Below, piece after piece: positions 1 to 14,595 of a stretch of 64,000 nucleotides of DNA. This stretch comes from an uncultured Alphaproteobacteria bacterium (GTDB taxonomy: Bacteria; Pseudomonadota; Alphaproteobacteria; Micropepsales; Micropepsaceae). Under the pieces are notes generated by a model. It was not told the origin of the DNA. It did not search any database and saw nothing but the letters and a program-made list of their open reading frames with translations. The position numbers were made by a program, and so were the translations under genes. Position 1 is the first letter of the stretch, and every line of letters starts with the position of its first letter. The stretch covers positions 1-64,000 of the forward strand of contig CADECX010000012.1 in NCBI GenBank assembly GCA_902825865.1. The letters run 5' to 3'.

Positions 1-851
1 CCGAGGGCGGGGATGCGGAACGGGATCTGGATCAGCTTCTCCAGATAGTTCCGCGCATAGTCCCTCGGGCCCGTCGTGTCGGGCAATTCCGGAAAGTGTT
101 TGCGAACGGAATATTCGATCATGGCCTCGTCGGCGGCCACGATGAAGGCGGTCCGTTCGGTGAAGACGAACAGGCGGATCGCCTCGAGAGTCTCGATCGC
201 GGTGTCGGGGAGACAGCGGTCGAGGTCGTCGATGAGGACGATGAGCTGGTCGATTCCGGCCTGCTTGAGAAGTTCGGTGAAGGCCTTCCTGAACGCTTCG
301 ATTTCCTCGGGAACATTCTTGGATTCCGCGGGCTTAAGGAGTCCTTGGACGCCGTCGACGGCCTTGTCGAAATTATCCTGTGTGGCCAACTTGGCGGGGT
401 CGGCGAAGATTCCCTTCAGTGTTCCGACGACAGCTCCTACTTGGTCCGCAGTCGGCATACCGGTGAGCGCTGTGAACGCGAGCCCGCCGCCATGACGTGC
501 GACCTTCAGCCAGTCGATACGCCTGAAGATATCCTTCACCGCTTCGCCGGTCTTGGCCAGGAGCGGCCGTTTCTCGATCAGCCCCGTGACGATGCCCTCG
601 ATGAGGGCGATCTTGGCGTCCTCGAAACCTTGGAAGCGCCAGCCATTGAATTTGAGGCACAGGACGTCCTTGTCGGAATTCAGGGCGTGTTCGATCATCT
701 CGAGAATGCTGGATTTCCCAGCGCCCCAGTCGCCGTGCACGCCGATCGTGACTGGATGTTCCGGTCGCTCGCGGAGCAAGGCGATAATAGTCTTGGCGAT
801 CGCTTCGTTGTTGAGCAGATCGACCTTGGTTTCATTGTCGGTCAACAGCAT
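1..851 (-). CDS. KAP-family P-loop NTPase, 3' end cut by window edge
   Basis: This is an open frame of 283 codons running off the left edge, so only the N-terminal part is visible. It shows a Walker A motif GDWGAGKS at residues 40-47, the segment FNGWRFQGFEDAK at about 69-80, and a Walker B strand LIVLIDDLDRC at 203-213 followed by a sensor-like strand IVAADEAMIEYSV. This order is that of KAP NTPases, which are often membrane-linked and frequent in defence islands. The ATG at 851 is preceded by GGGAG about nine bases upstream. It lies 178 bp downstream of the type III restriction genes in the same orientation, so a role in the same island is inferred. Partner and substrate are unknown. KAP proteins usually carry transmembrane segments inserted in the P-loop domain; none is evident in the visible part. 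Confidence 0.8.
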   Translation of the reverse strand, partial: MLLTDNETKVDLLNNEAIAKTIIALLRERPEHPVTIGVHGDWGAGKSSILEMIEHALNSDKDVLCLKFNGWRFQGFEDAKIALIEGIVTGLIEKRPLLAKTGEAVKDIFRRIDWLKVARHGGGLAFTALTGMPTADQVGAVVGTLKGIFADPAKLATQDNFDKAVDGVQGLLKPAESKNVPEEIEAFRKAFTELLKQAGIDQLIVLIDDLDRCLPDTAIETLEAIRLFVFTERTAFIVAADEAMIEYSVRKHFPELPDTTGPRDYARNYLEKLIQIPFRIPAL

Positions 852-1029
852 TGCGTCGCACTCCCTAGGGATGCGGCGCACGATTCGTTGCTGTGATCGG
901 CTCGCCTCCGTGCTGACACTGCCGCACTTACACTAATTTCGCCATACGTCCTGTGAGCCAACACAGCTTCGGAACTAAGTTGAAATCGAGGGAAGGCCCC
1001 AGCCGCAAGGTTCTAAGAACAATTTTGGA

Positions 1030-3366
1030 CTAGGTGACATCAAGGGCCAGCTTCACAGCGGCCTTTTCGTCAGGTGCATGAATTCCAAGGAGGCGTCCGT
1101 TCTTCCAACTCCACACCGTGAAACCCAACTTGCCGACCTTATTGATCTGCCCCGAAGGCAACGCCTCAGATTCCCCTTCTGAAATAAGCCGAAGAACCAC
1201 TTTTGCTGGTTCCCCGAGGGTATCGATATCGAAAAGCTTGCCAACACTCGCCTCTGTCAGGAGATGATCTCCTTTGGTATCAACCGCGATGACTGCTTTA
1301 TCGACCCAAACGAGAAAATCAGGCCAGTAGGTCGAGGACGACGACATATCGAGCAGTGGGATATAAAACCCACTGTTGCGAGGGTTTCTGGCCCAGACAC
1401 GCTGCGTTCGGTCTAGGGCTCGCGCAAATCGTAGCTCTAATGGGTTCAGACCGGAGTAAGTTCGGTGAAGCGCTTTGGTGAACTCGACGGCATCGGACGG
1501 ATCGACTGCGACTGGGCCCACGGAATAAGGCGCATCAAAGTCGTTCTGGAAAATCTTCGAGTGATCGATGTAGGCTTCAACGACCGATCGCGCGATTGAT
1601 CTGACGTGATCGGCTGCCGGACTGGTCAGCTCGATGAGGGCATCAAACTTGGGGAGCTCGATATCAACTAAATTAACTGGCCCGCCTGCGCGACGGAGAG
1701 CGCCGGAATATAGTCGCTGCAGTTCGCGTCTAAAGACAGACCTGGCAGTAACGCGGTTGCTGTGCTCAACCTCCGCCCATTCATAAGTCGCTTCAGATCC
1801 AATTCCTATCTCTTGGAGGACAAGCATTCGGCTTCCTTGGCCGATGGTGTTCGTTCCCCCGGAGGAAAAATCCATCATCTTCCCGACGATGTCAGCGATC
1901 GGCCGCTTCGCTTTGACGGAATGGATGCCGATTGTTGGGACGGTACGAGGAGGCTCCGGATTGACCTTCTCGAGAACGCGGCTACCGCCTTCTTTCTTGA
2001 TCAGAAGTGCGACAGCAGGATGCTCTGAGACGAGCTGCTTGCGAATGTCCTCGAGGATCTCGTCAAAAACGCCCCGCTCGTCAGTCCTGATATAAAAATG
2101 AGCCGTGTTGAGAGCGGGATCGCTGTAGTGCTCTGCTCCAGGTTGACGCAGCACGCGACCGACGACCTGCGTGATCTGGCGAGACGACGCCATCTCCTTA
2201 TCGATATATGCAAATCCACAGGTGGGATCGTCCCAACCTTCCTGGAGGCCTAAGTTGAAGATGATATGCTCGAAGTCGCCGTTGATGAAATCGGTGTAAT
2301 CGCGGTCTCCTCCGGAAAGCACGCGCATTGATTTCGGAGGGGGAGCATCTTTGGGAAATTTAAGCTGGCTATAAATTACGATCTTCTCGGGATCGATGCC
2401 GGCGTTTTCAACCAGGTGCCGCCAGATCAGGACAGGGCGTGCTTGCCGCTCATCAAACGGCCGCTTCATGTCCTCGGCGATCGGAACTCCGTCCACGGCG
2501 TTTGTGCTGCATACGTAGATTGCCTTTGGTCGGAATGGGACCGGCAGAGTTGCTGCCGCCTCACGAGCGTCGGCCATGTCAGCCAGCATGGCATCGACGG
2601 CGGTTTCCATTGGCGTCACGTAGCCGCCAATCGCTATCCGCTCCTTCACTAACCCGGACGCGACCACATCCTTACTCGCCACCGCCGTCGTGAAATGCTC
2701 ATCGCGCCACCCTCTATCGGTGCGAAGACGCGCGATCGTATTTTCCAGTCGGGCGGGCAGCGACATAGTCGCGCTGGCGGCGATCAACCCGTCGGGCGAG
2801 AGCTCGAGGAGCCTCCTCGTCTGAAGATCCGACAGGTTGTGACCTTCATCATAGATAATGATGAGTGGGCGCCGCGATCCGCCGACCGATCGGCTTTTTG
2901 TCAGCAGATCCCAGAGCGATTCGCTAGCGAGATCAAGTTGAGCCTCAAATACCTTGCGATCCCCGCCGGACTCGTCCTCCACCGCGAACTTACCGACCGT
3001 CGCAACGAGCAATAGCCCTTTCGATGTGTCTTCAATGTCGGAGGGTGCCACTTGGAGGAGGGGCTTAACCACGAAGCCAGCAATGTTGTCGGCGTACCTG
3101 CCGGACGACAAGTTGGCATAAGTCTGCGCAACAACGATTTTCCCTTTGGAAACCCACAGCACGATGGGCTGTACTGGCAGCCGATCACGTATCTGCGAGA
3201 TCGTATCCGCCAAGACAAGCGTCTTGCCACTTCCCGTTATCGACGCGAGCGTCTGTAGGAATGGCACCGTGGTCAAGCGATCCACCATCAGCGGATTCGA
3301 TGCATAGTCGGTAAACCGTGAAGCAATCTGCGAAGCAGCCTGCTCTTGGAATTTGAAGAGGTCCAT
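1030..3366 (-). CDS. res: Type III restriction enzyme Res subunit (helicase-nuclease)
   Basis: This 778-residue protein is the ATP-dependent DNA translocase and cleavage subunit of a type III restriction-modification system. Motif I is ASITGSGKT at residues 41-49. The DExH box is present as DEGH near 175, motif III as SATMS, and motif VI as QVVGRVLRQPG near 400. The C-terminal part has a PD-(D/E)XK endonuclease signature: PDF, then a short strand pair, then AVDTKGD near residue 700. The start ATG shares one base with the mod stop codon (TAATG), indicating translational coupling to the methyltransferase as is usual for type III pairs. The length is somewhat below the 900-1000 residues of EcoP1/EcoP15 Res, but all key motifs are visible, so it looks intact. 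Confidence 0.92.
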   Translation of the reverse strand: MDLFKFQEQAASQIASRFTDYASNPLMVDRLTTVPFLQTLASITGSGKTLVLADTISQIRDRLPVQPIVLWVSKGKIVVAQTYANLSSGRYADNIAGFVVKPLLQVAPSDIEDTSKGLLLVATVGKFAVEDESGGDRKVFEAQLDLASESLWDLLTKSRSVGGSRRPLIIIYDEGHNLSDLQTRRLLELSPDGLIAASATMSLPARLENTIARLRTDRGWRDEHFTTAVASKDVVASGLVKERIAIGGYVTPMETAVDAMLADMADAREAAATLPVPFRPKAIYVCSTNAVDGVPIAEDMKRPFDERQARPVLIWRHLVENAGIDPEKIVIYSQLKFPKDAPPPKSMRVLSGGDRDYTDFINGDFEHIIFNLGLQEGWDDPTCGFAYIDKEMASSRQITQVVGRVLRQPGAEHYSDPALNTAHFYIRTDERGVFDEILEDIRKQLVSEHPAVALLIKKEGGSRVLEKVNPEPPRTVPTIGIHSVKAKRPIADIVGKMMDFSSGGTNTIGQGSRMLVLQEIGIGSEATYEWAEVEHSNRVTARSVFRRELQRLYSGALRRAGGPVNLVDIELPKFDALIELTSPAADHVRSIARSVVEAYIDHSKIFQNDFDAPYSVGPVAVDPSDAVEFTKALHRTYSGLNPLELRFARALDRTQRVWARNPRNSGFYIPLLDMSSSSTYWPDFLVWVDKAVIAVDTKGDHLLTEASVGKLFDIDTLGEPAKVVLRLISEGESEALPSGQINKVGKLGFTVWSWKNGRLLGIHAPDEKAAVKLALDVT

Positions 3367-5333
3367 TAAGCCACCTCCTCCGGATTATTGAATTCATCGT
3401 TTTCATTGAGACCAAGATGGGCGAGAATTCGGTCAGGAATCTTCCAGAACCTGACATTGGGGGACTGATAAGTCTCGTAGCGTGCGTACACATGATACGG
3501 AGTCTTGATCCCTGCGCGCTTGGCTTCGTTGACGACTGTCCTATAGGTTTCAATATCAAGAGAGCCAACAGGCCCCCCATTGTCCCAGATCAGGAAGTAA
3601 CCTTCGCCCGCATCGTCTGTACCGATTAAATACTGATAGTCAGTGTCGTCGAATACGCTTAAATTCGGTGCGCTTCTCCGCTGAGACTCCCAATGCGACG
3701 TAAGGACGATGTCGATCAATTCGTCGCGCTGCATCGACAACACGGTTTTGGCGTCAATGGTTTTGGTCAGGAGGCGATACTCGAAGCCCCCACCAAGGGG
3801 CTCGGCGGTGCTCCCATCGGGGCGCTCGCCTGTTGCTGCATTATGCAGGCGTTTCCAAGTCAGCGTCCGAGCATATTTGTCTCCGTTCTCCGGTGCTCCC
3901 TGTTCAATCAGAATGAAGCGACGATCACTGTCCGCCTCCTGATTAAGTGCGAGAACCGAGTGGCCCGTCGTTCCCGAACCGGCATACGGGTCCATGACCA
4001 ACCCGCCCGGCGGGCACCAAAGCATGATGATCTTTTTGAACAGGGACATGGGCTTCACGGTCTCGAAACCGTGGCCCTTGCCGACGATGGCATCGAGCTC
4101 TTCGATGCCTTCGCGATTACGCCCCGATTCCGTTGCTGCCCAGGATACTGCGCCGATCGAGGTCAGCCGGTCTGGATCGGCCTCATCAACCCAGAACGTC
4201 GTTGGTACGGAGCCCATCTTCACGTGAGCGGCGTGCACTTTCAGCATCGGCTGCGCGTCGCCCTTCACACCAAAGTACAATTTAGGCCAGTTCCCGGCTT
4301 CGAGCCTCGCCAGTGCTTTCCCGCGTGCTTCGATCAGTTTCGGATGGGCGGGATCGAACGACGAGGACGACCGCGTCGGCGCACCCTTGATAACGAGCGC
4401 CTTCGGCTTGCCGTCTCCTAGCTCTCGCTCCTCGTATTGAGAGCCCCACTCGGAAAGCCATTTTCGAATTGTCGCCTTCTCGAATGCCCAGTGTCGCGTT
4501 TCAAGCGGCCAATGTAGCTCACCAGTAAATGGGGACTGGATGGCATAGGTGCTCGATTTGTGCGAGGTAGGGCTACGCTTGCCGGTCACGTCCCCCTGTT
4601 TCCAGTCCCCAGTTTCATCTCCATCCCTGTTGCCGAATCTAGAATCGGCTTTTTCAGATCGAGCAAGGAGTTTAGTCGAACTCAGAGACTTATCCTTCGC
4701 GTACACCAAGACGTAGTCCGTGGCGGTCGAAACGTGACGAGCATTCTTCGGTGTGGTCTTCTGCCAATTGATAATCGCGATACGATTCTCTTCTCCAAAG
4801 ACCTCGTCCATCATCATGCCAAGGTGGAAAAGTTCGTTGTCGTCGATACAGATAGCGACCACGCCCGACGGCTTTAGCATCGCCTTCATCATCTGAAGGC
4901 GAGGCATGATGGTTTTGATCCACTTGGTGTGGCGTGAACCGTCCTCTTTTGCGACGATGGTGCCAAGATCAGGATCGTTGGGATCGTTATCCCACTTATC
5001 ATTATACCTGAATGATTGCCCCGTGTTGTACGGTGGGTCAGTGAGTATCAGGTCAACTTCACCACGGTATTTGTATAGCGTCACCATAGCCTGAAGGTTT
5101 TCACCTTCGATAAGCAGGTTGCAGGCTTGGTCCGCTGGGCTTCCGACGTGAAGTTTCGGCTCCCGCCTCGTCACGCGGGGACGAACGCGGCGATAGATCT
5201 CGAGGGCAGTTCGCTTGCCATAAAAGCTGAGGGCAACCCCGTTGGTCAGCAGGCCCCTGACCATCCGCTCAAGGTCGTCTCTATCAAGCTTTGCAAGCTC
5301 GTTACTCAGTTCATCGCCCTGAAAATCGCGCAT
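3366..5333 (-). CDS. mod: Type III DNA adenine methyltransferase (Mod subunit)
   Basis: This 655-residue beta-class N6-adenine methyltransferase should provide both modification and sequence recognition for the neighbouring Res. The catalytic motif IV DPPYNTG is at residues 99-105, and the SAM-binding motif I, seen as MDPYAGSGTTG, lies near 440. DPPY preceding the FxGxG-type motif defines the beta class. The region between them is the expected target-recognition domain. I chose the ATG at 5333 because AAGGTG sits eight bases upstream; a TTG directly before it is possible. A 32-codon open frame starting at 5431 ends exactly over this start as TGATG and could be a translated leader. The gene is probably co-transcribed with res, and 214 bp separate it from the upstream ATPase gene. 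Confidence 0.93.
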   Translation of the reverse strand: MRDFQGDELSNELAKLDRDDLERMVRGLLTNGVALSFYGKRTALEIYRRVRPRVTRREPKLHVGSPADQACNLLIEGENLQAMVTLYKYRGEVDLILTDPPYNTGQSFRYNDKWDNDPNDPDLGTIVAKEDGSRHTKWIKTIMPRLQMMKAMLKPSGVVAICIDDNELFHLGMMMDEVFGEENRIAIINWQKTTPKNARHVSTATDYVLVYAKDKSLSSTKLLARSEKADSRFGNRDGDETGDWKQGDVTGKRSPTSHKSSTYAIQSPFTGELHWPLETRHWAFEKATIRKWLSEWGSQYEERELGDGKPKALVIKGAPTRSSSSFDPAHPKLIEARGKALARLEAGNWPKLYFGVKGDAQPMLKVHAAHVKMGSVPTTFWVDEADPDRLTSIGAVSWAATESGRNREGIEELDAIVGKGHGFETVKPMSLFKKIIMLWCPPGGLVMDPYAGSGTTGHSVLALNQEADSDRRFILIEQGAPENGDKYARTLTWKRLHNAATGERPDGSTAEPLGGGFEYRLLTKTIDAKTVLSMQRDELIDIVLTSHWESQRRSAPNLSVFDDTDYQYLIGTDDAGEGYFLIWDNGGPVGSLDIETYRTVVNEAKRAGIKTPYHVYARYETYQSPNVRFWKIPDRILAHLGLNENDEFNNPEEVA

Positions 5334-5547
5334 CAATTCGTCACCTTGGATATCTGGGATTTTCGCGGGCTATTCGCCAGAATGTTCCTATTATGTTCTT
5401 GTGTCTCAAGCAATCCCCGTGCCTGAGTCATGGCCCCTTGAAAGAGGCTATAACGGGGGTTTTGCCGGTCAGCCAAGCCCGATGCCGGCCGGCGCGTATC
5501 TCGAGGATCCGTTAGCCGAGGACGAGCGGGGTGGTGGTGGTGAGCCG

Positions 5548-8172
5548 TCATGCCGCCTTCTCCTGCCTGGTGCGAATATCGGCAATCCACATGGCCAGCG
5601 CGTCGATCTCGATCTCGATCACTGACGGTGCGGGCAAGCGGGGATTAATCTCCCCAGGTTGGCTGTGAAGCAGCGCCGAACAACGGCCGAAAGCTTCGCG
5701 CATTACCGTGCAGTCCACGTCAGTGAGGATGGTGAGCTTGATCAGACCGGTCGTATCGACCTTGCGGGACAGTCGACGGATCACCGGCCCTACCACTTCT
5801 TCCACCGCGCGCTCCCAGGTGGTGCGAAGCTGGTCTTGGAAGGATGTTACCTCCCACTGCCATTTCGCCTGATCGCCGCGTTCGTAATGGATCTTCACAT
5901 TTGCTAGGTGCGCTTTCATGCCGTCGATCACCTTGTCGAGGGGCATGACGTTGGCGGGCGGATCTTGATGGCAGAAGCCGGCATGGTCAGTGCCGCGGCT
6001 AATCAGCCGGTAGGACACGGGTGTTGCCGCCCGGTCCTTCGTCACCCGGCAGGCTTCGTCGAGTAGCAGCAGGAAGGCCATGTCATGGGTGAACACGATG
6101 ACCTGGCGGCTCTCGCCGGCTTCGGCCAGACGCGCGGCAACCCGATCGCGATGCAGGTGGTCGAGCGAGGACACCGGGTCGTCGAAGACGATCGCCGACT
6201 GCGCGTCGATCGTCGACAGCTCGGCGAGGAATGCAGCGAGCGCGACGCAGCGATGTTCGCCTTCGCTTAGAACCTTGCCGACTGGTTCGGCCGGCTTGTT
6301 GATCAGGCGCACCTGAAAGAAGGGGACGCCGGCCGTGGTCTTCGCTTGCTGAAGCTCGATCGCGAGGCCTGCAACGCCGAGCTTGTTGACCTCGATTGCG
6401 AAGCGACCGCGCAAGCGGTTGGTGACGAGGGCTTGGGCGATCCGCGCGCTCTGCGTCGTGATCTTGTTCGTGGCAGTGTCCTTGCTGGCCTTTTCAAGCG
6501 CCTCGACGGCTTTCGCGCGCTCTATCTGGGCAAGCACGTCGGCCTTCACGCCGCCGAGCCATTTGCGGTCGGCCAAGCCGTCGCGTTCGGCGACAAGGGC
6601 GGCGCGTTGCGGGGAGTTTGCCTCCGACTGCAGGCCCTTGATCCGGGTGGCGATCCCGCCCAATAGGCCGCGCAACTCGTCCAGCGAGGCGACGGCCTCC
6701 GGTGGCAACGTCGGCAGGACGTCACGGGCATGGGTTCGCAGCACCGCCCGCAGGCGCCAGCACAACTGAACGATCTGCCGGCGAAGGGCCTTCGCCAGCT
6801 CGGCCTCGCCGATATCGTCGCGGATCAGGGCGACGAACACCGGGATATTCTTCGTCAGGACGACCTGAGACGATAGCTGCTCGATCAGTTCGTCATAGGC
6901 GTCAGCGGCATCCTCTTCGCGACGCTTGCTCTCGTCCTGGACGAATGCTTCGAAGCTGGTGAGCCTCCTTGCGGCTTCTTCGCCCAGCGGCTGCTGGCAC
7001 AGTACGCAATGGGCGTCAGAGGCCGTTACTGGGAATGGCTGTCCGGGATAGGCGGCTTCGCGCGAATAGGCGCGGGCCGCTTCCCACAAAGCCTTCCAGA
7101 TATCCGAGCCGATGTCCGGCAGCGGTTCTTCGGCAAAGAGACTTCCCGAGGAGGCCGCAGCCCCGTAGACCGCCGTCGTGACACGCAAGTGGGCTTCGCG
7201 CAGGGTGGTCCGATTCCCGTCGCTAGCGCCGGCAATCAATCGCTCGATCTGGTCTATCACCGCCGTGATGCGGGTTTCCTGAGTCTGAAGCTGACGGACG
7301 GTCCGGGCGGGATCACCGGAGAGATCGGTAATGAGGGTCTGGAGCCGCGCCTCTTCCTGCGCGGTGAGACCGGCGAGTTTCTCGATGGTGTCGGGCTTGG
7401 TCTTGCCGGACAAGCTAGCGATTACCTTGCCCACCGCCGTGTCCGGCTTGCACTCAGGTTTTGATAAGACAACTGGCGTCTGCTGTTCCAGCGTCTTTAT
7501 CTCGGCCGAAAGTTTGGCCTTCACATCCTGGCACGCCTGCGCGAGGCCGGCGAGAATGCGCAAAGGAAGCGGCGTATAGGCGAGATCGTTGGTGTTCTCG
7601 ACATGGACGTTGGCCGTTCGCGAGTCGAAGACGCTGACGGCTGACAGCATCGGATCGGCTGAGCCGCCTTGGTTCCACGTCGCGCTTCGCTTCTGCCCAC
7701 CGATGAAGAAATCGATGCTGGCGGTCGGTACGCCACCAGAGCCGGCATAGATATTCGGCAGAATGGCGTCGCCCTTCGGAGAGCGTGCGCGGCAGAGCTG
7801 CTTGAGGACGCGGGCGTATCCCGATTTGCCGGCGCCGTTGTCGCCATAGATCACGGTGAGGCCGGTCTTGCCGAAGGACAGCCGCTCGCCCGGCGCGAGG
7901 GCGTTGACGTTCACCAGGCCATGCAAGGCGCCCAGGCTGACGACGGCGTGGCTCGCGGCGGGATCGCGAATGTGGCTGGTGTCCAGCGGAACAGCAGGGC
8001 TGTCACCTTTGCAGACGGCAACGAGGGCGGTGATGTCAGCGGGCTCAAGCTTCGTCTGGCCGCAGAGCAGGCGCAAGGCGTCACGCTGCCAGCCGGGCAG
8101 GTCGGCTGACCATGTCAGGATATCAGCAAGCGCCTCGGCCTCATTCGAGAGGTCATTACTCTCTTCATTCAT
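5548..8172 (-). CDS. RloC/COG4694-like SMC-type ATPase, possible anticodon nuclease
   Basis: This 874-residue protein has the split ABC/SMC layout of the AAA_13 family. Walker A is GDNGAGKS at residues 110-117. A long helical middle carries a Cys pair HCVLCQQPLG near 380, resembling the zinc-hook position of RloC. The ABC signature LSEGEHR lies near 635 and Walker B AIVFDDPVSSLDH near 655. The C-terminal tail contains GRCSALLHS, an R-x5-H arrangement like the HEPN ribonuclease motif. Known RloC and PrrC proteins are tRNA anticodon nucleases tied to restriction systems, and here the gene sits directly upstream of type III mod-res. The family assignment is good; nuclease activity is inference from one short motif. 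The start at 8172 has GGGGGAG and AGGA just upstream. The alternative is an ATPase-only AAA_13 defence protein. Confidence 0.75.
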   Translation of the reverse strand: MNEESNDLSNEAEALADILTWSADLPGWQRDALRLLCGQTKLEPADITALVAVCKGDSPAVPLDTSHIRDPAASHAVVSLGALHGLVNVNALAPGERLSFGKTGLTVIYGDNGAGKSGYARVLKQLCRARSPKGDAILPNIYAGSGGVPTASIDFFIGGQKRSATWNQGGSADPMLSAVSVFDSRTANVHVENTNDLAYTPLPLRILAGLAQACQDVKAKLSAEIKTLEQQTPVVLSKPECKPDTAVGKVIASLSGKTKPDTIEKLAGLTAQEEARLQTLITDLSGDPARTVRQLQTQETRITAVIDQIERLIAGASDGNRTTLREAHLRVTTAVYGAAASSGSLFAEEPLPDIGSDIWKALWEAARAYSREAAYPGQPFPVTASDAHCVLCQQPLGEEAARRLTSFEAFVQDESKRREEDAADAYDELIEQLSSQVVLTKNIPVFVALIRDDIGEAELAKALRRQIVQLCWRLRAVLRTHARDVLPTLPPEAVASLDELRGLLGGIATRIKGLQSEANSPQRAALVAERDGLADRKWLGGVKADVLAQIERAKAVEALEKASKDTATNKITTQSARIAQALVTNRLRGRFAIEVNKLGVAGLAIELQQAKTTAGVPFFQVRLINKPAEPVGKVLSEGEHRCVALAAFLAELSTIDAQSAIVFDDPVSSLDHLHRDRVAARLAEAGESRQVIVFTHDMAFLLLLDEACRVTKDRAATPVSYRLISRGTDHAGFCHQDPPANVMPLDKVIDGMKAHLANVKIHYERGDQAKWQWEVTSFQDQLRTTWERAVEEVVGPVIRRLSRKVDTTGLIKLTILTDVDCTVMREAFGRCSALLHSQPGEINPRLPAPSVIEIEIDALAMWIADIRTRQEKAA

Positions 8173-8247
8173 CGTCCTGGACTCCCCCCATTTGGCCCTA
8201 CTTTGATTGACCAGCTCTTTTTGATATTTCCAATTGGCTGTGTCTCA

Positions 8248-9372
8248 TCAGGCCCCTCCAAGTATGCGTCGTTCCGTGCCGAGCGGGATGATCCAGCCGC
8301 CAGCGCGATCCGGTCGCGCGAACTCATCGGGGCTCACCTTTTCAGCCAGACGACCGCGAATGGTCTCCGCTTCGCCATCGATTGCCGCACGGATCAGATC
8401 CCGGTCTACTCCGACGAAAACCGGACGAAGGTTGAGCCGGGCCAGGGCCTCCTGATCGACGGTACTAGAGACCGCGTCGGTAATCGGGCCGGCCCGCGTG
8501 ACGATCCCGCCCACCAGGCCGCCGATATCGTGGGTCTTTTCCACTTGTCCTATCGGCGCACTGTCGAGTGCGCCGCGCGCGCGAGCGGCGGCATCCCGGA
8601 GTGGTCGCGGAAAGGTTTGGCGTGTCAGAGCGCGCAGCGCGTGGGCGAGTTCTGTATGCCCGAGAGGTTCGATCATGCTGGCGACATGCAGACGAAGCAG
8701 GCCGATGAAGGGGGCGTCCTTGTCTTGCGGATCGATGGGATCGCCCTTGTCGATGGGATCGCAAACCGACAGGTGGGCGTCAGCGGGATTGGAATTGGCC
8801 ACGCCCCACCGGCTGGCGACCGCGATCCGCTTTACGGTGACCTTTCGGCCTTTGACCGTCACGTCGATGCGCCCGGCTTGCGTCCAGGCGCGCGCGAGTG
8901 CTTTCGCCGGTCCGCCCGGGTCGTGACAGCCCTTGGCCTCCGCGATCGTGAGTGAGGTCAGATCGGATTTGCATGCGATCCAGTCGGGGAGGTCGCCTCG
9001 GGCGAGGCGCTTGATCCTGACCTGCTTGCGACGGTCGAGATCGATCATGTGGTTGCCGAGATGGGCGAAGATGGAGAGATCGAAATATCGCTCGAGATAT
9101 GCGCGGGCAACGAACCGTCCGAACAGGCCTGACAACGCGACCTTCACTTCGCGCGCTTGGCCAAGCGGCTGTCTGAAAATGAAGGACGTGCCCGCGCCGG
9201 TCGGCGCCAGCAGCGCATCCAGGATCGACCATGCGCCATAGGCTGCGCCCGGCGTCTGAAGCACTTCGCGAATGCCGGCGTCTTCGATCTCGGAGACGTC
9301 CAGCGCGATGGTCGCGCCTGGGGACGGGTCAAGTGATGGCGGCGTGAAGCTGTAGATGAAGGTTCGGGTCAT
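8248..9372 (-). CDS. PD-(D/E)XK nuclease-like protein coupled to hipA
   Basis: I do not recognise the family of this 374-residue protein. Around residues 150-175 it has a clear PD-(D/E)XK pattern: LPDW, a strand, then LTIAEAKG, followed by a helix with AWTQAGRI. This would be the fold of a restriction-like endonuclease. The first 140 residues and the last 170 show no other motif I can name, and no membrane segment or signal peptide is seen. Its ATG overlaps the hipA stop codon by four bases (ATGA), so it is very likely translated with hipA as the third gene of the hipBA operon. The nuclease assignment rests on motif spacing alone. Seventy-five bases separate it from the downstream RloC-like gene. 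Confidence 0.6.
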   Translation of the reverse strand: MTRTFIYSFTPPSLDPSPGATIALDVSEIEDAGIREVLQTPGAAYGAWSILDALLAPTGAGTSFIFRQPLGQAREVKVALSGLFGRFVARAYLERYFDLSIFAHLGNHMIDLDRRKQVRIKRLARGDLPDWIACKSDLTSLTIAEAKGCHDPGGPAKALARAWTQAGRIDVTVKGRKVTVKRIAVASRWGVANSNPADAHLSVCDPIDKGDPIDPQDKDAPFIGLLRLHVASMIEPLGHTELAHALRALTRQTFPRPLRDAAARARGALDSAPIGQVEKTHDIGGLVGGIVTRAGPITDAVSSTVDQEALARLNLRPVFVGVDRDLIRAAIDGEAETIRGRLAEKVSPDEFARPDRAGGWIIPLGTERRILGGA

Positions 9373-10616
9373 AGCGCCAGCGCCCGCTTGAGATCATTGT
9401 GCTCGAAGGCGCTGGCCATCCGGGTAATCTCAGTAGAGCGGGCGCCGGCCGCTTTGGCGGTCTCACGCCACGTCGCGGTCACGGTCGCGACCTCTTTGAT
9501 GATTGCGCGGGCTTGCAGCAGTGTGAGGCCGAAGAACTCCGAAGCTGCCTCAAGCAGGTCAAGCGAGCAGGTGCCCTCGTCGAGGTCGATGTTCGTCGTC
9601 AGCACACGCGCCTTGAGATCGGTGGGCACAGGATTGAGGTCATAGGCGGGAGAAAGAGACCATCCGGCCTTGCCGAGCCAAAGGAAACCATGGTTACGCA
9701 GGTGATCGTCGACATTGGAAATCAGCACGTTGAAGACGACGCGCCGATAGAGGGCATGAGCGTCGGTCTTCCCCTGCGCACCATGTTGCGTAAGAGCGTC
9801 GACGATCTCCGGGTAGCTGCCGCGCTCACCGTCCTTGGCGCCCATCATCGCCATGGCAGATAGGAAAGGAGTGCGGATCGGGCCGGCGCGATCGAAGCGC
9901 CGCGACAGCATCACCGCCTTGCCGGCGACCTCAATCAGCTCATGGTGAGGGGTGGTGATGCCGGCCTGGTCAGCCAGCCTTAGCGCAATCTCCTCCCACG
10001 TCTCCATGCTGTAATCGTCGGTCTCCTTCGGGAATTTGGCGATGGAGAGGTGTCCGTGCTGGTCGATGACCGACGCTTTCGGCCGCGCGCCGCCGAGGGA
10101 GGAGCCAGGGGCGAAGATGAGTTGAAGGTCCTCGTCCGTTTCCTCGTCCCGGAGGATCCGTTCGGTGATCTGGAGCAGCCGCCCGAGTTCGATCAGGGCG
10201 GGGACGCCGGCGCGGATCGGCGCCTGGAACGCCTCTTCGCCTGCCCAACGGAATCTGAGGGCACCCAGGCGGGTCTCGTCGGCGACGCCGAGCAGGTAAT
10301 CGCTTTCCGCAAGGGTGCGGACGGCGCGCCCTTCGCGTTCGGCAAGACGGCGCTCGGCCCGTTGCATAAGACGGCGCCCCCATGTGTCGGGCGCTGAGTC
10401 TCCGATGGAGCCAAAAGTCACCAGTCCGACAGGAGGGGCGAAGGCACCGCGGGTTAGCGCAAGGGCAGGCTCAAGCGAGAACCGGTCGGGATCGACGAGC
10501 CACGCGCCATCATATTCGAAAAGGATAGTCTCCGTGCCTCGAACGCGATTGCTCCTCGCCAGGCCGATAGAGCGCGTGCGTCCCTCCAGGTCGATATGTA
10601 CCTCGAAGTCAGCCAT
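9369..10616 (-). CDS. hipA: HipA-family serine/threonine kinase toxin
   Basis: This 415-residue HipA-like kinase is the toxin of a HipBA-type module; known members phosphorylate aminoacyl-tRNA synthetases and arrest growth. The N-terminal couple_hipA-like region is followed by a glycine-rich loop with GSSLGGARPKA near 195-205, where HipA autophosphorylates. The catalytic loop is SNVDDHLRNHGF near 315 and the metal-binding element LSPAYDLNP near 338. I placed the start at ATG 10616 (MADFEV) rather than at longer in-frame codons, because upstream sequence overlaps hipB in another frame and looks non-coding. The start overlaps the hipB stop by eight bases. Its stop overlaps the start of the nuclease-like gene, so three genes are coupled. 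Confidence 0.92.
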   Translation of the reverse strand: MADFEVHIDLEGRTRSIGLARSNRVRGTETILFEYDGAWLVDPDRFSLEPALALTRGAFAPPVGLVTFGSIGDSAPDTWGRRLMQRAERRLAEREGRAVRTLAESDYLLGVADETRLGALRFRWAGEEAFQAPIRAGVPALIELGRLLQITERILRDEETDEDLQLIFAPGSSLGGARPKASVIDQHGHLSIAKFPKETDDYSMETWEEIALRLADQAGITTPHHELIEVAGKAVMLSRRFDRAGPIRTPFLSAMAMMGAKDGERGSYPEIVDALTQHGAQGKTDAHALYRRVVFNVLISNVDDHLRNHGFLWLGKAGWSLSPAYDLNPVPTDLKARVLTTNIDLDEGTCSLDLLEAASEFFGLTLLQARAIIKEVATVTATWRETAKAAGARSTEITRMASAFEHNDLKRALAL

Positions 10617-10944
10617 CGCGAGATGATCCGACTGTTCGCTTGAGATGGACGTGCTTGGGCAGTTCCGCGCTGGCCAGCGCTTGTCCAACTGGGTCGTTGC
10701 CGATGTCGGCGATCTGGCCCAGACCGTCGAGCAAGCCGAGCGCCTGAAGGACGCCTGCATAAATGCCGATGCTGACATTGGTGTCCCCGGCCTCGACCTT
10801 TTGCAGGGTCGAGCGGGATGTGAAGGCGCGTTCCGCGACGACAGCCATTGGCAGCCGCCGACGCCTACGGGCATCGTGGATGTCTGCACCGAGCTTGCGC
10901 AGAACGCGCCGCACAGTGGCGGGAGGGTTATGTGGTGTAGGCAT
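10609..10944 (-). CDS. hipB: HipB-family antitoxin, XRE-type DNA-binding regulator
   Basis: This 111-residue protein has a Cro/C1-type helix-turn-helix: ADIHDARRRRRLPMAVVAER, then SRSTLQKVEAGDTNVSIG, over residues 20-60. It ends in a basic tail. The position directly ahead of hipA and the HTH type identify it as the antitoxin that should bind HipA and repress the operon. The start at ATG 10944 is favoured over an in-frame GTG 15 bases upstream, because AAGG lies six bases before it. A candidate operator is present just upstream at 10954-10986. Confidence 0.9.
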   Translation of the reverse strand: MPTPHNPPATVRRVLRKLGADIHDARRRRRLPMAVVAERAFTSRSTLQKVEAGDTNVSIGIYAGVLQALGLLDGLGQIADIGNDPVGQALASAELPKHVHLKRTVGSSRDG

Positions 10945-10953
10945 TTGAAACCT

Positions 10954-10986
10954 TCGCACTACAGATTGGCGAGATATGTAGCACGA
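10954..10986. promoter_or_regulatory. Imperfect inverted repeat upstream of hipB, candidate operator
   Basis: Arms TCGCACTACA (10954-10963) and TGTAGCACGA (10977-10986) match at eight of ten positions when one is reverse-complemented, with a 13-base spacer. They lie 10 bases upstream of the hipB start, where HipB operators are normally found. Assignment is by position and symmetry only. Confidence 0.4.
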
Positions 10987-11452
10987 AGATTACAATTTTC
11001 CTAGCCCTCGCGCGATGGTCATCCCGTTGAGGGAGGGGGTAGCGGACCGCGGCCGTGACGGTATAACTCCGGGACGCTGAATCGTAGCCAGCGTATTCTG
11101 GCGTAGAGGCGGCGGTGCGGGCTGAGGGGACTTTCGGGGCGATGTCGCCGCCGCGCCTGTCGATAGATGGCGGAACCACAACTTTCGCGATCTGCCAGAA
11201 AAAGCCAATAATTTCAGAGGCCGGTACTTTTGACGGTCTACATGACGGTATACGGAAATCGAGAACATATTTTGTAAAATGATTTCCGATGCTTAATATG
11301 TCAGTTGATAATCGAATGGGAGTGAGAGGCACGACCCGCGATAGCGGGGCAAATCGGTCCAGTGGACCGATTTGAGTGCCGAGCGCGCCGAGCACAAGCG
11401 AGGCGCAATCGAGAAAGCCCCTGTAACGCATCTTCAATCTGCACAGAACTTC
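10987..11452. other. Gene-free boundary between defence island and core genes
   Basis: I see no supported gene, tRNA or integrase in this stretch between divergent hipB and the ABC-F gene. It holds three copies of a TGACGGT(A/C)TA word (11056-11065, 11231-11240, 11243-11252) and one long perfect palindrome at 11351-11373. The promoter of the ABC-F gene and that of hipBA must lie here, but no convincing -35/-10 pair stands out. Confidence 0.4.
11351..11373. repeat. Perfect 23-bp palindrome
   Basis: Arms AAATCGGTCCA and TGGACCGATTT flank a single G and match perfectly over 11 bases. No U-tract follows, so it does not look like a terminator. It lies 80 bases upstream of the ABC-F start. It could be an operator or a dispersed palindromic repeat. 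Confidence 0.7.
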
Positions 11453-13081
11453 ATGATCCGTCTCGACAATATCAGCAAGCAAAACGGCCATCAGCTCCTG
11501 TTCATCGACGCGTCGATGGGCGTCCTGAAAGGCGAGAAGGTGGGCCTTGTCGGTCCCAATGGCGCCGGCAAGTCGACGCTTTTCCGCATGATCGCGGGCC
11601 AGGACCGGCCTGATGATGGGCAGGTGTCGATCGAAACCGGCATGACCATCGGCTATTTCAGCCAGGATGTCGGCGAAATGTCGGGCCAGAGCGCCGTCGC
11701 GGCGGTGATGGATGGCGTGGGACCGGCTAGCGCGCTGGCCGCCGAAATGGCCCAGCTGGAGGCCGCGATGGTCGATCCGGACCGCATGGGCGAAATGGAT
11801 GCGCTGGTCGAACGCTATGGCGAGGTGCAGCACCGTTTCGAGGAACTGGACGGCTATGCGCTGGACGCCCGGGCGCGCGAGGTGCTCGCAGGCCTGAGCT
11901 TCAGCCAGGAGCGGATGGACGGCGATGTCGGTCTGCTTTCCGGCGGCTGGAAGATGCGCGTGGCGCTTGCCCGCATCCTGGTGATGCGGCCCGATGGCAT
12001 GTTGCTGGACGAGCCCAGCAACCATCTGGACCTGGAAAGCCTGATCTGGCTGGAGGCATTCCTTAAGAGCTACGAAGGCGCATTGCTGATGACATCGCAT
12101 GACCGCGCCTTCATGAACCGCATCATCGGCAAGGTGGTGGAGATTGATGGCGGTTCGCTCACCACCTATTCGGGTGACTATGATTTCTACGAGCAGCAGC
12201 GCGCGCTGAGCGAGCGGCAGCGCCAGGCCCAATTCGAGCGGCAGCAGGCGATGCTTGCCAAGGAAATCAAGTTCATCGAACGTTTCAAGGCACGCGCCTC
12301 CCACGCCGCCCAGGTTCAGAGCCGCGTCAAGAAGCTGGATAAGATCGAGAAGATTGAACTGCCGCGGCGGCGCCAGGCCGTGCAGTTCGAATTCCGCAGT
12401 CCCCCGCGCTCCGGCGACGACGTGGCGAGTTTTAGGGGCGTGCACAAGGCCTATGGCAACCAGTCCATCTATGCAGGGCTCGATTTTGCGGTCCGCCGCA
12501 AGGAACGCTGGTGCATTCTGGGCGCGAACGGCGCAGGCAAGTCGACTCTGCTGAAGCTGGTGGCGGGCGCGACTGAGCCGGACCAAGGCAAGGTGATTGT
12601 CGGCAGCAATGTGAAGATGGGCTATTTCGCCCAGCATTCGATGGACTTGCTGGAAGGCGACGAGACGATTTTCGAGTCCCTGGATAAGACCTTCCCGCAG
12701 GCTGGGCAGGGTACGTTGCGCACCTTGGCCGGCTGTTTTGGCTTTTCCGGCGACGATATCGAAAAGAATTGCCGCGTTCTGTCGGGTGGCGAAAAGGCGC
12801 GCCTGGTCATGGCCAAGATGCTGTTCGATCCGCCGAACTTCCTGGTTCTCGATGAACCTACCAACCATCTGGACATGGCGACAAAGGAAATGCTGGTGGC
12901 GGCGCTGGCGGAATTCGAGGGCACTATGCTGTTCGTCAGCCACGACCGTCACTTCCTGGCGGCGCTTTCCAATCGCGTGCTCGAACTGGCGTCAGACGGC
13001 GTTCATCAGTATGGCGGCGGCTACACGGAATATGTCGCGCGCACCGGCCAGGAAGCGCCGGGACTTCACCCCGCCGGTTAG
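11453..13081 (+). CDS. ABC-F family ATPase (translation factor type)
   Basis: This soluble 542-residue protein has two ABC domains in tandem and no membrane segments, the architecture of ABC-F ribosome-associated ATPases. Domain 1 has Walker A GPNGAGKST near residue 38, signature LSGGWKMR and Walker B MLLDEPSNHLD. Domain 2 has GANGAGKST near 365, signature LSGGEKAR and VLDEPTNHLD. The linker between them is charged and helical, as in the P-site tRNA interaction motif region. I chose ATG 11453 because the ABC domain begins right there (MIRLDNISK); an in-frame ATG 81 bases upstream would add residues atypical of the family. Without alignment I cannot say whether it is EttA-, Uup- or YheS-like. 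Confidence 0.9.
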   Translation: MIRLDNISKQNGHQLLFIDASMGVLKGEKVGLVGPNGAGKSTLFRMIAGQDRPDDGQVSIETGMTIGYFSQDVGEMSGQSAVAAVMDGVGPASALAAEMAQLEAAMVDPDRMGEMDALVERYGEVQHRFEELDGYALDARAREVLAGLSFSQERMDGDVGLLSGGWKMRVALARILVMRPDGMLLDEPSNHLDLESLIWLEAFLKSYEGALLMTSHDRAFMNRIIGKVVEIDGGSLTTYSGDYDFYEQQRALSERQRQAQFERQQAMLAKEIKFIERFKARASHAAQVQSRVKKLDKIEKIELPRRRQAVQFEFRSPPRSGDDVASFRGVHKAYGNQSIYAGLDFAVRRKERWCILGANGAGKSTLLKLVAGATEPDQGKVIVGSNVKMGYFAQHSMDLLEGDETIFESLDKTFPQAGQGTLRTLAGCFGFSGDDIEKNCRVLSGGEKARLVMAKMLFDPPNFLVLDEPTNHLDMATKEMLVAALAEFEGTMLFVSHDRHFLAALSNRVLELASDGVHQYGGGYTEYVARTGQEAPGLHPAG

Positions 13082-13159
13082 ACGGGAAATTGAGGCTTTA
13101 TTTGGCGCTTCGATTGATAGCATGCAAGGATAAGCGCGTGGGAGTAGGAGCGAAAGGGT

Positions 13160-13606
13160 ATGCGCAAGGTCCCGCCGGCCGCCAATCCTGGTGCCTATGT
13201 TGCGAGCCTCAGCGGCTGGCAACGCTCCTGCGTCGAAAAACTGCGCGCGGCGATACTTCGTGCCGGGGCGCTGGACGAAGTCATCAAATGGGGAAATATC
13301 GTCTACTTCGCCAATGGCCCCGTTGCGCTCATTCGCGCCGAAGAGACGCGGGTGCTGTTCGGATTTTGGCGCGGCAAGCGCCTGACCGGGATCGAACCGG
13401 TGTTGAAGCCCAGCGGAAAGTATGAAATGGCCACCATCCAACTCGGGGAAGGGGCGGCAATCCATGCGGCGAAGCTCACGCGGCTGGTGCGGGCAGCCCG
13501 TGCCCTCAACGAAAAGCTGGGCGACCCCACCAAATCGGCTCCCAAACGCAAAGCACCCGTGAAACGCGCCAAGTCCGCCCGCCGTCCGGTCGGACGCGGC
13601 AAGTAA
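13160..13606 (+). CDS. DUF1801 domain protein
   Basis: This 148-residue protein carries the DUF1801 (YdhG-like) fold: a helical start followed by IKWGNIVYFANGPVALI and later GFWRGKRLTG near residues 40-75. The last 30 residues are a Lys/Arg/Pro-rich basic tail (KRKAPVKRAKSARRPVGRGK), as seen in some members and suggestive of nucleic-acid contact. Biochemical function of the family is unknown. AAAGGG immediately precedes the ATG. The gene stands alone and converges with the serine hydrolase gene nine bases further on. Confidence 0.8.
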   Translation: MRKVPPAANPGAYVASLSGWQRSCVEKLRAAILRAGALDEVIKWGNIVYFANGPVALIRAEETRVLFGFWRGKRLTGIEPVLKPSGKYEMATIQLGEGAAIHAAKLTRLVRAARALNEKLGDPTKSAPKRKAPVKRAKSARRPVGRGK

Positions 13607-13614
13607 GGCGCGCC

Positions 13615-14595
13615 TTAAGCCAGCGCCAGCACCGGCCCGTCCAACAGCGCCATCAAATCCCCGAAATATCCTGCCGACCGCGCCGGCTGGCCCGGGTCTG
13701 ACGTAATCGCCACCGCCAGCTTGCGCGCGGGATGGGCGGCGATAATCTGGCCGCCATAGCCGCGGGCGATGGCAAAACCGGATTCGCTGAGGAACCAGCC
13801 ATAGCCATAGCCCAGCCCGGAAAAGGGCGACACGGTACGCGGGGTCAGGGATGCCGCAACCCAATCGGGCGCGATCACCTGCGTGGCTCCGAACCGCCCC
13901 TTGTCGCGCAGCATCACCGCCAGGCGCAGCATGGCGCGGGGAGTGAGGGTCATTTCATTGCCGCCGAAATAGAAACCTTGCGGGTCCCGCCGCCAGGCGG
14001 GCACTTCGATGCCCAGCGGCCCGCCCAACCGCTCGCGCGCCAGCGCCAGCAGGCTTTTGCCGGTGGCGGTGGCGATGGCGGCTCCCAGCACATGGCTGCT
14101 GCCGGTGGAATAGATCATGCGGCCGCCCGGCACATCCATCATCGGGCGGCGCAGCGCATAAGCCACCCAATTGCCCGACTGCACCCAGCTCCCGTAGTTC
14201 GCGCCCGAGGTGCTCCCCAGACCGGCGCGCAGAGTCGCCAGATCTTCCATGGTGATCGAAGGCACGCCGGTGCTGGCCTTGGCCGGGATCAGGCGCGGCG
14301 CCACTTCGCTGAGCGGTGCGCCGATGCGCTTGATTTCGCCGCGCGCGATGGCGGTGCCCAGCAGCAGCGCCACGATGCTCTTGGAACAGGATTTGATGTT
14401 GGCGGCGCGATCCAGCCCCGCGCCGCGCGGTGCCTCGGCCACGATCACAGAATCGTCCAATTGAATCTGCAAGGAATGCAACTGCCCCAGCCCGCGCACG
14501 GCGCGGCGGATCCCGTCCACCGTCTGGCCGAAGGCGGATGGGGGCATGGCCAAACCGGCCAGGAGCGTGGTGGAAAAGCGCCGACGGGATATCAT
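13615..14595 (-). CDS. Exported serine hydrolase, class C beta-lactamase fold
   Basis: This 326-residue protein starts with a twin-arginine-like leader (SRRRF followed by a hydrophobic stretch ending AFGQ), so export is expected. The S-x-x-K catalytic motif is SCSKS near residue 89 and a tyrosine motif YSTGSS lies near 165; the C-terminal part has GYGYGWF and GGQ segments. This is the layout of the beta-lactamase/DD-peptidase-like esterase family (PF00144). The substrate cannot be told from sequence; true beta-lactamase activity is less likely than esterase or amidase activity. It is divergent from the SRAP gene with a 46-bp gap. Confidence 0.85.
   Translation of the reverse strand: MISRRRFSTTLLAGLAMPPSAFGQTVDGIRRAVRGLGQLHSLQIQLDDSVIVAEAPRGAGLDRAANIKSCSKSIVALLLGTAIARGEIKRIGAPLSEVAPRLIPAKASTGVPSITMEDLATLRAGLGSTSGANYGSWVQSGNWVAYALRRPMMDVPGGRMIYSTGSSHVLGAAIATATGKSLLALARERLGGPLGIEVPAWRRDPQGFYFGGNEMTLTPRAMLRLAVMLRDKGRFGATQVIAPDWVAASLTPRTVSPFSGLGYGYGWFLSESGFAIARGYGGQIIAAHPARKLAVAITSDPGQPARSAGYFGDLMALLDGPVLALA

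Follow-up and report, generated by a model that had tools for sequence, protein, structure and literature searches.

A conserved hipBA locus with a probable PD-(D/E)XK nuclease-type protein and an RloC-like ATPase: a candidate modular anti-phage operon

Is a HipA-family kinase toxin coupled to a nuclease in the genome of an uncultured alphaproteobacterium? A first-pass annotation of a 64,000-nucleotide stretch of a Micropepsaceae contig (CADECX010000012.1, positions 1 to 64,000; hereafter, the window) had described a triad of overlapping genes, hipB, hipA and a gene for a protein with a PD-(D/E)XK pattern, and had suggested an unusual toxin or abortive-infection design. We will refer to the third gene and its product as X. 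Beyond that description, we found a gene for an ATPase, a type III mod-res pair and an inverted repeat in front of hipB (Table 1).

Table 1. Features of the hipBA-X locus and its surroundings in the window.
Feature	Position	Strand	Basis or remark
hipB, HTH antitoxin-like, 111 aa	10609..10944	-	HTH_31 6.9e-07; couple_hipB 3.4e-06 (under cut-off)
hipA, full-length HipA-family kinase, 415 aa	9369..10616 (ATG at 10616)	-	Pfam HipA_C 4.7e-45; PDB HipT/HipA matches
Gene X, probable PD-(D/E)XK nuclease-type protein, 374 aa	8248..9372	-	Conserved residues and predicted fold
RloC-like ABC-ATPase, 874 aa, zinc hook and C-terminal R-x3-E-x48-H / R-x5-H	5548..8172	-	
Type III restriction-modification methylase, mod	3366..5336	-	Neighbour of the hip-X-ATPase unit
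Type III restriction-modification helicase subunit, res	1030..3366	-	ResIII 7.3e-07; neighbour
Imperfect inverted repeat, candidate HipB operator	10945..10995	-	Directly 5' of hipB

Overlapping genes and control region

As in HipBA modules, the HTH protein HipB is encoded directly upstream of the HipA_C kinase gene, and the two genes overlap. The overlap comprises 8 bases in the window (ATGGCTGA), and hipA and X share 4 bases (ATGA), exactly as the first-pass annotation had stated. Both junctions were found to be conserved. Among the 46 hipB-hipA-X loci with script-readable junctions, a count that leaves out 8 further loci that were too incomplete or broken, hipA and X overlapped by exactly 4 bases in every case (ATGA, GTGA or TTGA), and hipB and hipA by 8 bases in 45, the exception (L075) showing an early hipB stop. 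Since the overlaps are still kept between copies of which some have diverged to dS > 1, we conclude that the arrangement is held by selection and not by chance. The ATPase gene starts 75 bases downstream of X in the window, and gaps of 55-81 bases separate the two genes in the loci measured; despite this gap, we assume that the ATPase is co-transcribed with X. An Rfam scan of window positions 1-14000 gave no match.

The HipA_C domain begins at residue 171 of the full-length window HipA, which has the kinase motifs (Gly-rich loop, lysine, N-x-D-D-H-x-R-N-H and SPAYDL); of 48 copies compared, nearly all retain them. HipA of this type occurs in single copy in the source genome. The inverted repeat in front of hipB has arms of about 19 bases, with 15 of 19 positions complementary, and a 13-base spacer. 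An equivalent repeat with identical placement was detected in nearly all related hipBA loci that were read, with or without X, and was absent at L103 and L106, the two loci where HipA is more distant. We regard the repeat as a good candidate for the HipB operator.

The locus resembles HipBA modules in its HTH antitoxin gene that overlaps hipA, in a full-length HipA with intact kinase motifs and in the candidate operator. It differs from them in the genes that follow, namely a PD-(D/E)XK-type gene, again overlapping, and frequently an RloC-like gene. HipBST is likewise a three-gene Hip operon, but its kinase, HipT, is short and has no N-subdomain, and its additional protein is the small HipS. 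The genes of the triad studied here instead encode proteins of 111, 415 and 374 aa, with a full-length HipA, a nuclease-type protein and no HipS. Membership in HipBST, already judged a poor fit in the first-pass annotation, is thereby ruled out.

Protein X and the RloC-like ATPase

X showed no meaningful match when compared with Pfam, NCBIfam, PADLOC and PDB sequences as a single sequence, nor as a family with Pfam and PDB. Its PD-(D/E)XK pattern (P129-D130 ... E145-A-K147) lies in a core of about residues 74-190, with E75, P129-D130, E145-x-K147 and Q165 as key positions. In an alignment of 54 sequences, reaching down to 29% identity, E75, P129, D130, W131 and E145 are invariant, while K147 is kept in 53 sequences and Q165 in 50. 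The AlphaFold2 model (pLDDT 83, pTM 0.88) places E75 in a helix (74-97), followed by a strand just after D130 (131-135), a strand with E145-x-K147 (141-149), a helix with Q165 (154-166) and a further strand (181-188). This order of elements is the canonical one for PD-(D/E)XK proteins, with D130 and E145/K147 on successive strands, and the pattern noticed at first reading is thus borne out both by the conserved residues and by a predicted structure that retains the core.

Structural searches with the model returned weak matches. Foldseek listed HindIII first, with all matches at E above 0.1, and the best VIA-align match was EcoRV (Z 4.6, rmsd 4.3, 114 residues); the VIA-align rows were led by EcoRV, the SPARDA nuclease, lambda exonuclease, HincII and Hjc, with unrelated rows intermixed. 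X shares the catalytic residue pattern and the order of core elements with EcoRV, HincII, lambda exonuclease and the SPARDA nuclease, but differs from PD-(D/E)XK enzymes in matching no known family at the sequence level. Taking the structural matches jointly with the conserved residues, we consider X likely to be a PD-(D/E)XK nuclease-type protein. The approximately 165 C-terminal residues have no identified relative.

Relatives of X were recovered from 78 genome loci, 32 plasmid records and one viral contig. The titles of the genome loci name alphaproteobacteria, except for one unclassified MAG. Phage records gave no match to X, and the viral contig, from IMG/VR, carries the X relative next to an OLD-type ATPase. 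Intact copies of all four genes are under purifying selection (median dN/dS of 0.056 for HipA, 0.071 for HipB, 0.099 for the ATPase and 0.118 for X). Through an in-frame internal deletion, a Methylocella copy of X (L005, 10001-10735) has lost about residues 134-257 and with them the E145-x-K147 site; hipBA and the ATPase are intact there.

The fourth gene product matched the PADLOC candidate PDC-S06 (7e-184) and Pfam AAA_13. Across 24 ATPase relatives, GDNGAGKS, the zinc hook C389-V-L-C392, LSEGE and IVFDDP are invariant, as is the C-terminal R783-x3-E787-x48-H836. The protein additionally contains R830-x5-H836, fitting the R-x4-6-H motif carried by HEPN RNases (PMC3710099). Published features of RloC are a zinc hook and an Arg-x3-Glu-x36-52-His signature (PMC2610378). 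Because the zinc hook and the Arg-Glu-His signature match these features, we call the protein RloC-like by signature, with a putative role as anticodon nuclease. Its structure model is of low confidence (pLDDT 56). Like RloC and PrrC, it is an ABC-ATPase with a zinc hook and the R-x3-E-x36-52-H signature, and RloC-like genes are known to occur near restriction-modification systems and toxin genes such as Doc (PMC2610378, PMC3710099); the difference here lies in the pairing with X and hipBA. On a Bradyrhizobium plasmid (L004, 3330-6017, minus strand), a second protein encoded on the opposite strand is 28% identical to the RloC-like ATPase and has a matching zinc hook and matching Arg/Glu/His positions.

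Gain, loss and exchange around X

X homologues do accompany hipA: hipB, hipA and X, in any state, were found together in 49 of the 78 recovered genome loci. All four genes, including the ATPase, are intact in 17 loci, and one further four-gene locus lacks only the hipB start, at a contig end. X was broken next to an intact hipBA in 13 loci, compared with two genome loci (L026 and L035) and one plasmid (L003) in which X is intact and hipA broken; gene intactness was scored by script from BLAST positions, so that single cases (the ATPase of L015, X of L059) may be misjudged.

The gene next in line varies. A 355-aa gene, for which Pfam and PADLOC gave no match and which is absent from the window, sits after the ATPase or directly after X in some loci. 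It is full length in 14 of them, namely L033 (9813-10880) and 13 others at 79-85% identity (L018, L021-L024, L027, L029, L030, L036, L038 and L051-L053), and partial at L026 and L074. The window instead carries the mod-res pair (1030-5336) downstream of the ATPase, and the Mod methylase and Res helicase genes together identify it as a type III restriction-modification system. The mod gene is 99-100% identical to those of L015, L016 and L032, and the mod-res pair 98-100% identical. At L032, identity to the window drops to 73-78% for X and the ATPase, as opposed to 99% for mod, which argues that mod-res moved separately. Judged by these identities, there was a recent separate transfer of mod-res to the same spot in the window, L015, L016 and L032. 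That mod-res belongs to the unit as a constant component is ruled out by the identity mismatch at L032 and by its absence from most loci.

Members of different genera share nearly identical blocks (L019/L020, 7.3 kb at 99.9%; L029/L030, more than 13 kb at 99.98%; L041/L045, 7.4 kb at 99.97%), and by this measure the unit has recently been transferred between them. Separately, L041, L042 and L044 lie far apart on one Pseudogemmobacter bohemicus contig and are identical over at least 13 kb, representing either a large duplicated element or an assembly artefact.

The front of the operon is exchanged as well. On the X tree, a quick tree with some long branches, the presence of hipBA as neighbour requires 7 changes, of which at least 5 are forced by well supported branches. 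In three loci (L019-L021), hipBA is replaced by a winged-helix protein (MarR_2, under cut-off) and a nucleotidyltransferase-like protein, named so from a motif read by eye (GGAACDLLF...KDIDMVL), which had no match in Pfam or PADLOC. The gene for the latter overlaps X by 4 bases, as hipA does. The pair (4221-6004 in both L019 and L021) may be an unrecognised toxin-antitoxin pair. Other neighbours of X include a PstI-type restriction-modification pair (L033), DUF2130 (L039, L040), Dsr1/SIR2 (L060, L068), OLD/AriA-type ATPases (L065, L093) and AbiJ-type proteins (L007, L008, L071-L073). The ATPase stays with X where hipBA has been replaced (L019-L021, L033, L039, L040).

Conversely, hipBA persists on its own. 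HipA at 80-95% identity was found in 162 plasmid records and X in only 32, many of them without hipBA. X remnants lie right behind hipA in three stand-alone hipBA loci (L013, L104, L105) and in two genome loci (L079, L091); the other stand-alone hipBA loci that were read contain no X remnant. Together, the stand-alone loci and the remnants within some of them suggest that X has been lost repeatedly while the hipBA in front of it was kept, as would be predicted for an addiction module. On the Ti plasmid pTiBo542 (L101, 3673-5248), a hipBA of the same subfamily occurs without X, followed by an annotated ABC-three component system, and hipBA without X is likewise found on many Agrobacterium and Rhizobium plasmids.

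As hipBA is often found without an intact X and X often without hipBA, joint action is not needed for the persistence of either. It is possible, if somewhat unlikely, that hipBA is an ordinary addiction module and that X and the ATPase are independent defence cargo on its promoter, retained through addiction and sharing no mechanism with it. The plasmid counts, the X remnants, the excess of loci with a broken X behind an intact hipBA and the retention of the ATPase by X after replacement of hipBA all agree with such an arrangement. The exact 4-base hipA/X overlap in all 46 readable loci speaks against it, and so does the replacement pair of L019-L021, whose identical overlap with X hints that expression coupled to a toxin-antitoxin-like front is needed.

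A candidate layered defence operon

We consider it somewhat more probable than otherwise that the locus is an anti-phage operon that is mobile, modular and layered and whose toxin-antitoxin front can be exchanged. This proposal draws on the conserved overlaps, the PD-(D/E)XK core of X, the RloC signature and the four-gene set intact in 17 loci. Further, it is based on purifying selection, the changes of hipBA on the X tree and transfer across genera, and on the defence-type neighbours of X (PstI-type restriction-modification, SIR2/Dsr1, OLD/AriA-type ATPase and AbiJ). Additionally, HipA-family kinases are known to protect against phages in HipAD (DS-6; HipA with DUF3037), an anti-phage system backed by experiments (PMC13092281, PMC12548924). 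Our locus shares with HipAD a HipA-family kinase in a defence operon, but has another partner: no DUF3037 match was obtained by Pfam for X, HipB or the ATPase.

The triggers, targets and activities that we infer for this operon would be as follows. HipB would repress the operon through the inverted repeat and keep HipA inactive, until infection removes or outpaces HipB and sets HipA free. By analogy, HipA would then phosphorylate a host target such as an aminoacyl-tRNA synthetase, and translation would stop. X, made from the same message as hipBA, would cut DNA, and the RloC-like protein may provide a second translation block through tRNA cleavage. Besides, hipBA could double as an addiction cassette that holds the operon in place and that can be exchanged, and X would be a defence effector working in several contexts, not a dedicated part of a HipA toxin.

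A more tightly linked version appears improbable to us. It would have the toxin-antitoxin front sense the infection and the DNA breaks made by X switch on the RloC-like tRNase, so that translation arrest by the kinase, DNA cleavage and tRNA cleavage act jointly behind an exchangeable front. A DNA break inducer reportedly activates RloC (PMC3874168).

That X is instead a third regulatory component of the Hip module, a DNA-binding antitoxin or co-repressor with a degenerate, non-catalytic nuclease fold, is very unlikely. In its favor, genes downstream of several Hip kinases have been proposed to encode antitoxins, and DNA-binding or resolvase-like domains are present in some of these (PMC8262856). 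Against it, few positions of X are as well conserved as the putative metal-binding residues and the lysine, for which a protein that only binds would have no need; hipBA is intact where X is broken, so that X is not needed to restrain HipA; and X is also found without any Hip kinase. The same survey of Hip kinases does not contain the word "nuclease" for any partner (PMC8262856), and an operon of hipBA, nuclease and RloC was not found in the open-access literature searched, although it may be described elsewhere.

The proposed coupling of a kinase toxin to a nuclease therefore stands as a recurrent gene order, but it is not exclusive, given X with other neighbours and hipBA alone on plasmids. 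Similarly, the three-gene triad is real, but the unit is often larger, including the RloC-like ATPase and, in some genomes, a fifth gene. With this non-exclusive coupling and the frequent fourth gene, the locus resembles a modular defence operon more than it does a dedicated kinase-nuclease toxin pair.

The layered anti-phage operon that we favor would add to the defence repertoire a family of nuclease-type proteins that has no curated profile, as well as a conserved operon that combines a Hip kinase module, a PD-(D/E)XK protein and an RloC-like protein. Since the front is swapped in nature, the contribution of the toxin-antitoxin genes, be it as promoter, addiction module, sensor or effector, is directly testable. 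Finally, the RloC-like neighbour allows one to ask whether the DNA-break signal comes from a dedicated nuclease.
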